Positions 9,014-13,590 of a stretch of 64,000 nucleotides of DNA are shown here, piece after piece. The DNA comes from Aquificaceae bacterium. GTDB taxonomy: Bacteria; Aquificota; Aquificia; Aquificales; Aquificaceae. Made by a program: the position numbers and the translations under genes. Under the pieces are notes generated by a model. It was not told where the DNA came from, did no database searches, and was given only the letters and a program-made list of their open reading frames with translations. The stretch lies in assembly GCA_037481935.1 (NCBI GenBank), contig JBBFKQ010000001.1, positions 142,741 to 206,740 of the forward strand. The letters are read 5' to 3'. The stretch's first letter is position 1. Every line of letters begins with the position of its first letter.

Positions 9014-9246
9014 AGACCCTGTGGCTTGTAAGAAAGCTTGGAGACTTCAGCTCTGACCTTGTGGGGGAGGAAGATGTGGTCATATTAATACAGGACGGCG
9101 TTTTGAGGTTTCCTACAAAGAAGGGCTGGTATGCGTGCAGAGAGGATGCGCAGGCGAGGGGCATAAAAATCCCTGAAAACCTTACAAAAAGCTATGAAGA
9201 AATAGCGGAGCTAATAGTAAAATCTGAAAGGGTGGTGGTCTGGTAA
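9007..9246 (+). CDS. DsrH/TusB-like protein
   Basis: A 79-aa protein with VVILIQDGVLRFP and a C-terminal VVVW, matching the small DsrH/TusB subunits. It overlaps both neighbours and completes a TusB-C-D-like set with the two preceding genes. The gene directly after it is queD, which makes a wobble-uridine thiolation role (with queuosine at the same tRNA position) more likely than dissimilatory sulfur oxidation, though this remains inference. Confidence 0.6.
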   Translation: MVKTLWLVRKLGDFSSDLVGEEDVVILIQDGVLRFPTKKGWYACREDAQARGIKIPENLTKSYEEIAELIVKSERVVVW

Positions 9247-9740
9247 TGAAATGGCAGATATCAAAAACCTTCAGGTTTGAAGCAGGCCACAGGGTATGGA
9301 AGCAGAACCTCACCTGTGGAAGAGGTGCAGAGCTCACCCTTGGCAAAGAGGTGCCGGTGAACAAGTGCGTAAACCTGCACGGACACAGCTATGTGCTTGA
9401 AGTAACCCTTGGCTCAGACAGGCTTTCGGAGCAGGACATGGTTATGGACTTCTACCACGTAAAGAACGCCCTCAAAGACCTTATAGATACAGTAGACCAC
9501 AGCTTCATCATAGACAGGAACGACCCCATGTATGAAGAGCTGAGGACTGTAGCTGAGAAATACGGAGCGATGAAGATATTCCCCGTCAACTTCTGCCCCA
9601 CTGCAGAGGCTCTTGCTAAATTTTTCTACGACTACCTTGTGGAAAAGCTCTCAGAGGTTGGTCTTCTGGGTGACGTGAAGGTGGTGAAGGTGGTCCTCTG
9701 GGAGACCGCCACCTCAAAAGCAGAATACTGGGGTGAATGA
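9246..9740 (+). CDS. queD: 6-carboxy-5,6,7,8-tetrahydropterin synthase
   Basis: A 164-aa member of the QueD/6-pyruvoyl-tetrahydropterin synthase family. The zinc ligands are H17 (FEAGHRV) and the two histidines of the motif CVNLHGHSY; CxxxHGH is the QueD form with catalytic cysteine, rather than the folate-type ExxHGH. Further family elements are MVMDFYHVK, LDHsF-like VDHSFI and VVLWETATSKAEY. It converts dihydroneopterin triphosphate to carboxytetrahydropterin, an early step to preQ0 and queuosine. It is fused tightly in the operon with the sulfur relay genes upstream and overlaps the PriA-like gene by 4 nt. Confidence 0.9.
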   Translation: MKWQISKTFRFEAGHRVWKQNLTCGRGAELTLGKEVPVNKCVNLHGHSYVLEVTLGSDRLSEQDMVMDFYHVKNALKDLIDTVDHSFIIDRNDPMYEELRTVAEKYGAMKIFPVNFCPTAEALAKFFYDYLVEKLSEVGLLGDVKVVKVVLWETATSKAEYWGE

Positions 9741-11746
9741 ATTTAAAACTTGCCCTGCCAGGCGGAAGGATACTTAGAGTAAAAGCCAACTTTCCCTATG
9801 AAGGTAGCCCCATAGGCTACAGGGTTCTCCTTCAGGGGAAGACTGCCATCATTGTGGGCTTAGCCAGGGAAGGGCAGGAAGTGCCCCTTGAGTTTCCCGA
9901 CAGTGTTCCGATGACCACAGAAAAGCACATAAAGGCAGTGGTAGAAACTGCAGGTCATTATGGTCTTAACCCATGGCTCCTTCTGCATAAACTTCTACCA
10001 TCAGCCCTTGACTGGAGGGAAGAAGAGTATGTGGTTCTCTCCGAAAAGCCTCACAGGTTCCTTGATAGAAAAAGTCTTGAAATCCTTGCATGGGTGGGTA
10101 AAAGGAAGAAGGTAAAGGAAGAAAATCTCAGAAAGCGGTTCGGGGATGGTCCCGTAAGGCATTTGATGGAACTTGGTTTTTTGATAAAAATGAGGGAGTG
10201 GAAGGCTCCAGAGCTCAGTGAGAAAATCTACAGACTTTCTCTTCCCATTGAGGAAGCCATACAGAGGCTCAGGGCGCTGAAGAGAGGAGAGGATGCAATC
10301 AGGCTACTCTATTTTTTGCTTGAAAGAGGGTATGCAAGCGAGGAGGATTTGAAGGACAAGGGATTCAAAACCGGGCAAATCAGGGCTCTAATTAAAAAAG
10401 GCCTGGTGGTGGAAGTGGATGAAGAACTTCCTCAGATAAGCTTTAAACCCACAAAACTCAGACAGGAGATAAAAACTATACTGAAACCACTGGGAAGAAA
10501 GACTTTACTGATGGGTAGCTGGCAGGGCATAAGTGAAAGACTTTTTGAGGAGCTTCAGGCTATTGCAGAAAAAAAGAGCTCTGTTCTCCTTTTCTGCGAC
10601 CATCTTGAGATGCTGAAATGTCTCTACGAGGAGCTGTATCCAGTCTTGGGAGACAGGCTTGTTCTGCTTAGCTCACTGCAGAAGGAGAGGGAATTTGTAA
10701 GAAACTGGTTCAGAGTTGGCGAAGAGGATGGTCTTGTGGTGCTTGGAAGCAGGCTTGCTCTTCTCTCCCCAATAAGGAATCTGAAGCTCCTTGTTCTTCT
10801 TGGAGATAGGGCTTCAAAGCTACAGGACGGGACTAATCTGAGACACCTTCTCTTTGAACTTGCTCGCTACTATGGCGCAGGTTTCTGCATTGCAAGCCCT
10901 CTTCCACCTGTAAGCCTGTGTCTTAGAGAGGGCTGGGAGAGGGAGGTTTTCACTCCCACTGCGGAAGTGCTCGTGGTAAAGAGAAAGCCTGAGGAGGTTC
11001 TGGCTACAGACACTGTAAGGCTTCTGAAAGATTGTGCTGGTGAAGAGAGTCTTATCCTTGTAAATAAGGTGGGCTATGCCTACGCCTATTGCAGGGTGTG
11101 TGGTTACGTGCTGGAGTGCCCGCAGTGCGGAAGCTTTTTAACTCTGAGCAAGGATGGTAATGTGGTTTTCTGCAACTCCTGCGGATACAGAAGCGTTGCC
11201 CTCTGTCCCGAATGTGGTGGGAATCTCTCTGAGCTAGGCTTTGGAATAGAAAAGGCCATGGAGGAGGTAGACAGATGGATTGGGAAATCAGGGCACATGC
11301 ACTTCAACACCCTTCCAGAGCTGGGCAAAATTTACGACAACGTGTTTATACTGCATGCGGACAACATACTCTCCGTCCCATGGTATGACTCCACGGAGCA
11401 GTATTTTTCCTATGTCTGGAAGGCTCTCTGTATAAGCAGGAAAAGGCTTGTGGTGCAGACGGTCATGGAATACAACCCACTTTTAGAGTATCTCAGGGCA
11501 AGGGACTGGGAGGGCTTTTGCAAAGAGGAGCTCCACAGAAGAAAAGAAGAAAACCTTCCGCCCTTCAGCAGGCTCATAAAACTTCAGCTCAGCAGAGAGC
11601 CAGACCTGAGCCATCTTCCAGTGGAAGTGAGCAGAAAAAAACTCCAGAAGGTGACGGAGCTTCTCATAAAGGTCGACAGCAGAAACTTCAGCTCCCTTCT
11701 TAAGTATCTGAGGTCTCTCAGACCCACAAACCTTCAGGTGTTATAA
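9737..11746 (+). CDS. priA: PriA-like primosomal protein with eroded helicase motifs
   Basis: A 669-aa protein recognised as PriA by its overall plan: N-terminal DNA-binding region, helicase-like core, an eight-cysteine zinc module (about residues 452-494: CRVCGY, CPQCG, CNSCGY, CPECGG) and the C-terminal element ENLPPFSRLIKL. The catalytic motifs are lost: where Walker A (GVTGSGKTE) should be it reads GSWQGISERL (about 260-269), where DEEHD should be it reads LGDRAS after a well conserved GSRLALLSPIRNLKLLVL (about 337-354), and where QVAGRAGR should be it reads WKALCISRKR. It may still load replication proteins without unwinding DNA. The open frame is intact, so it is not an obvious pseudogene. 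Confidence 0.8.
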   Translation: MNLKLALPGGRILRVKANFPYEGSPIGYRVLLQGKTAIIVGLAREGQEVPLEFPDSVPMTTEKHIKAVVETAGHYGLNPWLLLHKLLPSALDWREEEYVVLSEKPHRFLDRKSLEILAWVGKRKKVKEENLRKRFGDGPVRHLMELGFLIKMREWKAPELSEKIYRLSLPIEEAIQRLRALKRGEDAIRLLYFLLERGYASEEDLKDKGFKTGQIRALIKKGLVVEVDEELPQISFKPTKLRQEIKTILKPLGRKTLLMGSWQGISERLFEELQAIAEKKSSVLLFCDHLEMLKCLYEELYPVLGDRLVLLSSLQKEREFVRNWFRVGEEDGLVVLGSRLALLSPIRNLKLLVLLGDRASKLQDGTNLRHLLFELARYYGAGFCIASPLPPVSLCLREGWEREVFTPTAEVLVVKRKPEEVLATDTVRLLKDCAGEESLILVNKVGYAYAYCRVCGYVLECPQCGSFLTLSKDGNVVFCNSCGYRSVALCPECGGNLSELGFGIEKAMEEVDRWIGKSGHMHFNTLPELGKIYDNVFILHADNILSVPWYDSTEQYFSYVWKALCISRKRLVVQTVMEYNPLLEYLRARDWEGFCKEELHRRKEENLPPFSRLIKLQLSREPDLSHLPVEVSRKKLQKVTELLIKVDSRNFSSLLKYLRSLRPTNLQVL

Positions 11747-11831: not shown

Positions 11832-12842
11832 TTACAAGGCAATGTAGTAAGAACCGCTACGGCTAACTCTGCCCTCCATCTCAAGCTGGAGGAGCCTGAG
11901 GGTGAGCTCGGAAGCCTCCATGCCCGTGGCTTCAATGAGGTCGTCAAAGGTCTTTGGAGTCGTCAGCAGTTCAAGGAGGGGGTCTTTCTTCAGGTCTGAT
12001 GTGGGCAGGTTATCAAAGAGAGCCTCGGCGCTGTATAGTATCTTTGCCTTCCCTTCGTTTACGAGCTTCACACAGCCGAGCCATCTCTGGCTGGATGCAT
12101 TGCCTATGTATGCCCAGAGGGGCTTTTTCTGCCTGAGGGCATACTCTGCGGTTATAAGGGCTCCGCTCCTTTCGCTAGCCTCTACCACCACTACCGATGC
12201 GGAGATACCGCTTATGAGCCTGTTTCTCCTCGGGAAGGTATAATCCTCAGGGACTACCTCTGGGAGAAACTCGGAGAGGAAGAGGACACCTTCCTGCAGT
12301 CTGTGTAGGTAGGAGGGCATTCTGAGTATACCCATTCCCAGTATACATACAGTAAAGCCTGAGTATTTCTGGCTTTCAACATGGGCGGTCATGTCTATGC
12401 CGTATGCTCCGCCAGAGGCTACCGCATAACCCTTCTGTGCTATCTGACGCACCATATGTCTTGTAAAGTTAATGCTCTGAAGGTCTGGCTTTCTTGTTCC
12501 AACCACAGCGATAAGGGGCTTTTTATTCTGTGTGCCCCTCCAGAAGAGGACGGGAGGCGGGTCTTCAATCTCTCTGAGAAGCACAGGATACTCCTCATCC
12601 TCAAGGGTAAGCCATCCTATAGCCTCCCTTTCCACCAGTTTTATCACCTCTTCAGGTCTGAAGGAAAGCCTCTTCTCAATAAGAGCTTTTGCCCTCTCTT
12701 CGCCTATAAGAGAGCTTGCCTCTTCAAGGCTCATGGAGAGTATCCTCTCCACACTACCAGCCCTGAGCCAGAGCCTTTTTATGGACACCTCCCCGAGCCC
12801 CCTTATAGCCTTGAGCAAAAGCCAGTTATAGAGCTTCTCCAT
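11832..12842 (-). CDS. dprA: DNA processing protein DprA
   Basis: A 336-aa protein with an N-terminal helix-hairpin-like region (about 1-60), the Rossmann-like DprA core (VVGTRKPDLQSINFTRHMV, SGGAYGIDMTAHVES, FPRRNRLISGISASVVVVEAS) and a C-terminal winged-helix region (about 275-336). It binds incoming single-stranded DNA and loads RecA during natural transformation. The start overlaps the end of moaC by 17 nt. ComEC and a PilB-type ATPase in the same window suggest a competent organism. Confidence 0.92.
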   Translation of the reverse strand: MEKLYNWLLLKAIRGLGEVSIKRLWLRAGSVERILSMSLEEASSLIGEERAKALIEKRLSFRPEEVIKLVEREAIGWLTLEDEEYPVLLREIEDPPPVLFWRGTQNKKPLIAVVGTRKPDLQSINFTRHMVRQIAQKGYAVASGGAYGIDMTAHVESQKYSGFTVCILGMGILRMPSYLHRLQEGVLFLSEFLPEVVPEDYTFPRRNRLISGISASVVVVEASERSGALITAEYALRQKKPLWAYIGNASSQRWLGCVKLVNEGKAKILYSAEALFDNLPTSDLKKDPLLELLTTPKTFDDLIEATGMEASELTLRLLQLEMEGRVSRSGSYYIAL

Positions 12843-13590
12843 CCACCCAGTTCCCGATTAGACTTCCAAAGTTTTCAAAGAAGGACTGGACTATATCCAT
12901 CTCTTCCTGAATCTCCACGCAGGGCTTTCCCTCAAAAAGCCCCACCCTCACACCCCTCCTGAGCCTGTGGGGGAAAAGGGAAAAGAGCTTCTGGTTTAAG
13001 ACGGCAGATACACCCCAGACTTCAGAAAACTCAAGGGGCAGGGTGCTTATGGTAAGCTGAAAGTCTTCTTCCGAGATTTCTGCACCCAGTGCTGATAGCT
13101 TGCCCTCAATAAGCTCCTTCATACCACATTCAGAAAGAACCCTGACCCTTATACCCTCAAGATTCCTGCCCCACTGGGACTTTCCACCCTCCTTTGAGAT
13201 TAGCCTTATCTCCTCAATGGTCATGCTGTCGTCCATGCCCTTACACATGTCGTATACGGTCAGAAGAGCAACGCTCACGGCGGTAAGAGCCTCCATCTCA
13301 TATCCCGTCCTGCCCACGCCCTTCACATAGGAAAAGACTTCCAGACAGTCTTCTTCAACCCTTACGTCCACCTCCACATGCTCAAAGCTCAGAGGATGAC
13401 AGAAGGGGAGAAGCTCCGGAGTTTTCTTGGCACCCATTATGCCGGCAAGCCTGCAAGCAGAGAGCACATCCCCCTTTGGCACTCTACCCTCTTTTATAGC
13501 CTTAACCGTCTCCGGTTTTAGTCTTATTCTTCCATAAGCACTGGCAGTCCTGAGGGTCTCGGGCTTACCACTTACATCCACCGTTTTCAT
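12826..13590 (-). CDS. moaC: cyclic pyranopterin monophosphate synthase with a C-terminal extra domain
   Basis: A 254-aa protein. Residues 1 to about 150 are a standard MoaC (VDVSGKPETLRTA, GAKKTPELLPFCHPL, GRTGYEMEALTAVSVALLTVYDMCK, DDSMTIEEIRLISKEGGKS), which makes cyclic pyranopterin monophosphate in molybdenum cofactor synthesis. The last 105 residues or so (from GIRVRVLSECG) are an additional domain that I do not recognise; it is too short for the MogA/MoaB partner found in some fusions. The start has no ribosome-binding site and a TATAGT box 7 nt upstream, suggesting a leaderless mRNA. It is divergent from the DUF29 gene with 39 nt between. Confidence 0.88.
   Translation of the reverse strand: MKTVDVSGKPETLRTASAYGRIRLKPETVKAIKEGRVPKGDVLSACRLAGIMGAKKTPELLPFCHPLSFEHVEVDVRVEEDCLEVFSYVKGVGRTGYEMEALTAVSVALLTVYDMCKGMDDSMTIEEIRLISKEGGKSQWGRNLEGIRVRVLSECGMKELIEGKLSALGAEISEEDFQLTISTLPLEFSEVWGVSAVLNQKLFSLFPHRLRRGVRVGLFEGKPCVEIQEEMDIVQSFFENFGSLIGNWVDGEAL

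Follow-up and report, generated by a model that had tools for sequence, protein, structure and literature searches.

The helicase motifs of PriA have been described as well conserved among bacteria, and the pseudohelicase kind of PriA is already known from Deinococcus-Thermus: for the Deinococcus radiodurans protein ATPase activity was not measurable and unwinding was negligible, but it binds single-stranded DNA (ssDNA) and forks within about twofold of Escherichia coli PriA and gave evidence of DnaB binding, and a part in reloading the replisome was proposed for it (Lopper et al. 2015, PMC4504706). For E. coli itself, an excerpt of Duckworth et al. 2023 (PMC10175261) describes DnaB-loading assays that used the ATPase-dead PriA variant K230A, and reports helicase activity to be unnecessary for PriA-PriB restart. 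An excerpt of Rocha et al. 2005 (PMC1193525) lists Aquifex aeolicus, like D. radiodurans, as being without PriA. Here we describe a priA homologue from Aquificota, found in a stretch of 64,000 nucleotides (the window; contig JBBFKQ010000001.1, positions 142,741 to 206,740) of the 99.99% complete genome of a hot-spring-type bacterium of the Aquificaceae. Its 669-amino-acid (aa) product contains none of the superfamily 2 (SF2) helicase motifs I, II, III, V and VI.

The gene starts with the ATG at 9737 and runs through 669 codons with zero internal stops to the stop codon at 11744-11746. The initial annotation had described exactly this frame, in coordinates, strand and length, and had held that the eight zinc cysteines and the PPFSRL element are kept and that Walker A, DEEH and GRAGR are all replaced; the retained parts were indeed located, at residues 452-493 and 608, and the replaced motifs proved absent throughout the protein, with remnants at the aligned places. 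The features are as follows, in window coordinates.

9737..11746, + strand: priA pseudohelicase gene, intact, 669 aa, assigned by frame, homology and fold
9737..10036, + strand: N-terminal 3'-end-binding-like domain, diverged, about residues 1-100, with G27, R29, D55, Y75 and P88 kept
10505..10543, + strand: motif I (Walker A) remnant, LLMGSWQGISERL where the canonical sequence is GVTGSGKTEVY
10787..10816, + strand: motif II (DEEH) remnant, LLVLLGDRAS
10886..10918, + strand: motif III (SATPS) remnant, CIASPLPPVSL
11051..11083, + strand: NKxGY element, retained (canonical NRRGY/F), upstream of the zinc domain
11090..11215, + strand: cysteine-rich region, residues 452-493, all eight zinc-ligand cysteines present
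11300..11329, + strand: motif V region remnant, HFNTLPELGK where the canonical sequence is GTQMxxKGHxFP
11420..11449, + strand: motif VI (QxxGRAGR) remnant, KALCISRKRL
11558..11575, + strand: PPFSRL element, retained, starting at residue 608

At the aligned motif places the protein reads GSWQGISERL (I), LGD (II), SPLPP (III), NTLPELGK (V) and CISRK (VI). A whole-protein pattern search found no [AG]xxxxGK[ST], DEx[HDQ], SAT or GRxGR anywhere; displaced intact motifs were thus ruled out, that is, the motifs have not simply been relocated. A bare GKT at residue 34 and a GKS at 516 lie outside any P-loop context. The eight cysteines are held in four CxxC pairs (452/455, 461/464, 479/482 and 490/493). 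The protein is otherwise PriA-like but has neither the Walker A lysine nor motif II, and by sequence it is a pseudohelicase.

Homology searches placed the protein among PriA sequences below the curated thresholds. TIGR00595 matched it with 102.7 bits (E 1.8e-29), under the 230.35-bit cutoff, no Pfam family matched at cutoff (the PriA zinc ribbon PF18319 scored 15.3 bits vs. the 26 needed), and the 3'-end-binding domain PF17764 had no match in the source genome. PDB PriA 6dcr was matched at E 8.9e-13 with the single sequence as query, and PDB PriA at 3.7e-38 with profile A1 (14 proteins of family f1) and at 2.6e-62 with profile A2, one row of which is canonical and from Bacillota; families f1-f5 are numbered here as by the search tool, f1-f3 being of the same order as the source genome, f4 of the same class and f5 of the same phylum. 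Profile A2 also matched the 3'-end-binding-like domain to PDB 2d7e (E 6.5e-5), and the structural alignment begins at residue 1. By sequence the protein belongs with the PriA homologues but is not classed as a PriA helicase, because motifs I, II, III, V and VI are absent. The PRK14873 models, which we take to be the actinobacterial PriA series, matched weakly (40.1 bits at best). The divergent actinobacterial PriA proteins are not known to have helicase motifs; both groups are divergent, and the present protein is likened to the actinobacterial one by description and this weak match. That description, 'smaller and very divergent', comes from the excerpt of PMC1193525.

The predicted structure agrees. 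An AlphaFold2 model from 33 sequences had a mean predicted local distance difference test (pLDDT) score of 87.4 and a predicted template modelling (pTM) score of 0.79, with residues 231-248 as the one listed stretch of pLDDT <50. The nine best Foldseek matches were all PriA structures, the best (E 1.1e-27) being 4nl4, presumably Klebsiella PriA. VIA-align gave Z 24.0 for 8fak_H (4.1 Å over 514 residues) and Z 23.5 for 4nl4 (4.3 Å over 536 residues, with model residues 1-669 aligned to chain residues 2-727), with a range of Z 22.9-25.2 against five PriA entries and Mfd as the next protein at Z 17.1. Both lobes and the full PriA architecture are present in the predicted structure. In the model the former motif I strand spans 255-260 and a helix starts almost immediately after, at 262, inside the former P-loop; the P-loop place therefore reads as helix, which would close the nucleotide site. 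Judged by sequence motifs and model, the SF2 ATP site is absent and the PriA fold is kept.

Compared with canonical PriA (E. coli; PDB 8fak, 6dcr), the protein shares the full-length architecture and fold, the eight-cysteine zinc region and the PPF/PPW element, but is without motifs I, II, III, V and VI, is shorter (669 aa vs. 732) and has a diverged 3'-end-binding domain. We examined constraint by the ratio of nonsynonymous to synonymous substitution rates (dN/dS, NG86 method) for 22 close pairs, 20 pseudohelicase and two f5, which share members and are not independent. It was 0.073-0.154 in the pseudohelicase pairs, vs. 0.040-0.062 in the f5 pairs; by region, pseudohelicase pairs had 0.04-0.26 in the dead lobe 1 and 0-0.26 in the zinc region. 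As reference columns we took the 148 that hardly vary among f5, E. coli and a Bacillota PriA (L129). Twenty-four were kept at ≥80% in both f1 and f2, including all eight zinc cysteines, P631, P632, E621 and R625, and 32 were kept at <10% in both, including G227, K230, D320, G538, H546, G583, R584 and G586. Zinc-region columns were kept at 12 of 23 in f1 and again in f2, lobe 1 columns at 4 (f1) and 14 (f2) of 66, and lobe 2 columns at 6 (f1) and 5 (f2) of 32. The overall pattern is loss of the motor with retention of the zinc region and the PPF element.

With the protein as query, a PriA homologue was matched in 128 of the 136 Aquificota genomes, and in all 88 that are ≥90% complete and ≤5% contaminated; seven of the eight genomes without a match are <90% complete and one (G066) is >5% contaminated. 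We read 90 loci, one from each of 90 of the 128 matching genomes, source included (46 loci from f1, 24 from f2, 4 from f3, 2 from f4 and 14 from f5); the 76 f1-f4 proteins all differ from one another. SATP and GRxGR occurred in 14/14 f5 sequences and 0/76 f1-f4 sequences (75 judged for GRxGR, the place being masked in L088). The Walker A pattern was found in 13/14 f5 sequences, the fourteenth reading GVTCSGKM, and in 3/76 from f1-f4, none at the motif I place; the Walker-like matches elsewhere look like chance, in f1 at 278 in L008 and 131 in L050 (likewise in the named copies L093 and L116), at 273 in L125, and in f2 at 81 in L088. Motif II has not been wiped out everywhere, since three of the 76 keep DEPQ (at 360 in L008) or DEGH (at 375 in L038 and L040) at or near its place, and acidic residues remain there in f2 and f3. 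Similar DExH/Q-like matches at 48 in L005 and 523 in L046, among the loci outside f5, lie away from motif II and were rejected. All but one of the 76 f1-f4 sequences have open frames of 612-761 aa, the exception being L088, with 527 aa and a masked stretch. Of the lineage-specific conversion proposed in the initial annotation, then, the motif loss stands and the confinement to one lineage's gene does not, as every sequence read from f1-f3 and both f4 sequences share the loss.

In a 65-row alignment, the position of E. coli K230 is K in 14/14 f5, R in 23/23 f2 and R in 4/4 f3 rows, and never K in the 20 f1 or two f4 rows. Family f5 (L071-L084) shares with the others the phylum, the zinc region and the PPF/PPY/PPW element, and alone retains most motifs: K, DE, SATP and GRxGR are present in 14/14, with M replacing T231 (GKM for GKT) in 14/14 and DEEQ in place of DEEH at motif II in 13/14, so that its ATPase may, from these substitutions, already be impaired. 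At least four CxxC pairs were found in 43/46 f1 and 23/24 f2 sequences (the exception being L088) and in all of f3, f4 and f5. Three pairs instead of four were seen in L029, L037 and L043 (f1) and in L105, L108, L109, L112 and L120 (f1-type, several labelled Aquifex), and 3/20 aligned f1 rows lack the cysteine that corresponds to E. coli C466. The TIGR00595 cutoff was passed in 26/136 genomes, namely 21/22 from f5 and five from f2; the f5 genome G128 (83% complete) has no full PriA.

Among named loci, metagenome-assembled genomes (MAGs) labelled Thermocrinis, Hydrogenobacter, Hydrogenobaculum and Aquifex fall in f1. SATP and GRxGR occurred in 0/37 named Aquificota-type loci (six partial), and the Bacillota locus L129 has all motifs; 26 of the 37 encode the same protein as another sampled locus and so are largely not new. 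L105 and L112, deposited as A. aeolicus MAGs, carry the homologue, each with three CxxC pairs.

No second PriA was found in the source genome, where the protein as query gave one match at E ≤10, and the best TIGR00595 stretch scored 63.6 bits, vs. 441.8-535.3 in the 21 f5 genomes with full PriA. Three further TIGR00595 matches are presumably other helicases, because their scores are low and RecG is present. Of the loader proteins named in the initial annotation, DnaC was found and DnaT was not found in the source genome. DnaB is present there, as are RecG (718 bits) and a UvrD-type helicase. The DnaC (223 aa) has as best PDB matches 3ecc and 3ec2 (7.8e-54), which are from A. aeolicus (PMC4129139); DnaC of Aquificae is described in an excerpt of PMC3290774. 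DciA was found in 0/136 Aquificota genomes, the controls Deinobacterium chartae and Thermus composti being positive. DnaC itself was identified only in the source genome and near priA in f5, where in 3/14 loci (L072, L073 and L074) dnaC follows priA in the same orientation, 59-64 bases downstream.

We consider it probable, at roughly three in four, that the protein is a PriA pseudohelicase, the sole PriA found in its genome, kept as a motorless platform for DnaB/DnaC loading. Such a role, the non-unwinding loading scaffold suggested in the initial annotation, agrees with the conserved fold, with the purifying selection on the gene, with the finding of both DnaB and DnaC, and with published results for D. 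radiodurans PriA and the E. coli K230A variant. From these we infer fork binding, use of a pore, contact with DnaC and DnaB, a restart role and absence of ATPase. The protein would recognise abandoned or repaired forks and hold lagging-strand ssDNA between three of its parts (the cysteine-rich region, lobe 2 and the C-terminal domain). It would recruit DnaB via the DnaC loader, which is of Aquifex type, and would not itself travel along the DNA. Where unwinding is required, it would be left to other helicases, e.g. RecG or a UvrD-like protein; alternatively, use would be limited to forks whose lagging arm is already single-stranded.

Several observations weigh against this platform role. The C-terminal domain and lobe 1 are the least conserved parts in f1 (26% mean identity each), and dN/dS of the zinc region is not always the lowest, reaching 0.25 in pairs from genus g8. 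Fork recognition may differ from that of canonical PriA, because the 3'-end-binding domain is under Pfam detection (PF17764) in all 14 genomes of genus g1 and one of its canonical residues, G37, is missing from f1 as well as f2. Five f2 genomes (G076, G082, G088, G091 and G092) score above the TIGR00595 cutoff although the motifs are absent from those read (all but G091). The adjacency of priA and dnaC is confined to the three f5 loci, with none in the f1-f4 loci examined (many with short flanks). PF01695 matched 136/136 genomes, f5 included, so that a DnaC-type match is not specific to pseudohelicases, nor does PF01695 alone show DnaC in a given genome, because the family also matches DnaA and many control genomes.

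The gene immediately upstream overlaps the priA start by 4 bases:

9246..9740, + strand: queD/PTPS-family gene

The queD-priA overlap was present in 13/13 loci examined of the genus, of 4 bases in 11 and 10 bases in two. In genus g1 dprA adjoins priA in convergent orientation. The MoaC gene at window positions 12826-13590 (- strand) encodes a C-terminal extension of about 118 residues with no Pfam match at E 0.01. L098, a contig labelled Acidobacteria, has a priA locus of g1 type, sharing the queD-dprA-moaC order and a protein identical to that of L013, and is probably a mislabelled MAG. In one genome of the genus, that of L006, the full gene is accompanied by a further, incomplete match to the N-terminus of PriA (G039:C1:1338908-1339264; 48% over residues 2-120, in an open frame of 197 aa).

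This neighbourhood bears on the strongest rival, namely that a PriA-derived protein has left restart for some other DNA or RNA role (e.g. recombination or natural transformation), its dead lobes serving as a nucleic-acid-binding fold. The queD overlap and dprA adjacency in g1 speak for it, as do the fading of the 3'-end-binding domain in f1, with PF17764 unmatched in g1, and the low conservation of the f1 C-terminal domain. However, dprA is convergent with priA, not co-directional, and was found beside it only in g1 loci (many others having short flanks); the zinc and PPF elements agree with canonical PriA; and with a homologue in 88/88 good genomes and no other PriA in the source genome, restart would lack PriA altogether. 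We regard such a departure as improbable, though it is the alternative to be taken most seriously.

Much less credible is that ATP is still bound and hydrolysed at a non-canonical site. Both lobes keep an SF2-like fold, and the acidic residues at motif II in f2 and f3, with DEGH or DEPQ near it in L038, L040 and L008, would suit such activity, but no f1-f4 sequence read has a motif I P-loop, the present protein has no Walker A pattern, GRxGR is missing from all 76 sequences (one masked there), and K230R alone is reported to abolish the ATPase and helicase activity of E. coli PriA (PMC4504706). We give least credence of all to a decaying relic or an assembly or frame error, which the high divergence and the missed curated family cutoffs might suggest: frames are open in all f1-f4 sequences except L088, dN/dS is 0.07-0.15, the fold is predicted with confidence (pLDDT 87.4), and chance or a sequencing fault is unlikely because the same losses recur in 75 other distinct sequences from four families. 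The motorless platform for DnaB/DnaC loading remains our preferred explanation.

A tree made by a quick method (20/46 f1, 23/24 f2, 4/4 f3, 2/2 f4 and 14/14 f5 rows, E. coli and L129, with the partly masked f2 sequence L088 dropped) recovered every family as one clade and separated f5 and the two outgroup rows with support 100. A single motor loss before the f1-f4 split is possible on these sequences; several independent losses within Aquificota may also be compatible with the tree, given the quick method, the long branches, one poorly supported fork (76) and biased composition. The states are graded: f5 has GKM, f2 and f3 have R where E. coli has K230, and the source genome's family has none of the motifs. 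The sequences suggest a stepwise loss in some such order of events. RuvB (E <1e-60) was matched in 33/41 f2 and 22/22 f5 genomes, and in 0/64 f1, 0/7 f3 and 0/2 f4 genomes; six of the eight f2 genomes without a match are <90% complete. That A. aeolicus is without RuvAB was already reported, in the excerpt of PMC1193525. RuvB loss does not track motor loss as such, because f2 lost PriA motor residues yet mostly keeps RuvB; it may reflect one or two shared events and is offered as a lead only. A tentative wider picture, which we hold to be somewhat doubtful as a whole, is that Aquificota record a stepwise dismantling of PriA, with f1 reaching an ATP-free fork platform that works with DnaC, and restart in bacteria like the present one proceeding without PriA unwinding or RuvAB branch migration.

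The likeness to D. radiodurans PriA lies in a PriA homologue with Walker A and B ruined (the activity data being from D. radiodurans only), and f2 and f3 have arginine at the Walker A lysine position, as reported for Deinococcus-Thermus. The Aquificota protein differs in belonging to another phylum and in that all motifs are replaced in the source genome's family; furthermore, DciA was detected in the Deinococcus-Thermus controls and in none of the Aquificota, and the source genome has a DnaC loader. The Aquificota loss was probably independent of that in Deinococcus. The text of PMC4504706 contains no word starting with Aquif-, and no report of an Aquificota PriA without helicase motifs was found in the open-licence literature searched, judged by the titles and abstracts listed. 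What is new is Aquificota as a second group with such proteins, the gradation of their states, and the occurrence of a PriA homologue in relatives of a species that had been reported to lack one. The homologue in A. aeolicus-labelled MAGs bears on the absence of PriA from A. aeolicus published in PMC1193525, as excerpted; perhaps the protein was too diverged to be noticed earlier. The apparent discarding of the motor, with the remainder under selection, separates PriA's two jobs in nature, and the graded series allows the order of loss to be tested, with proteins that are likely heat-stable.

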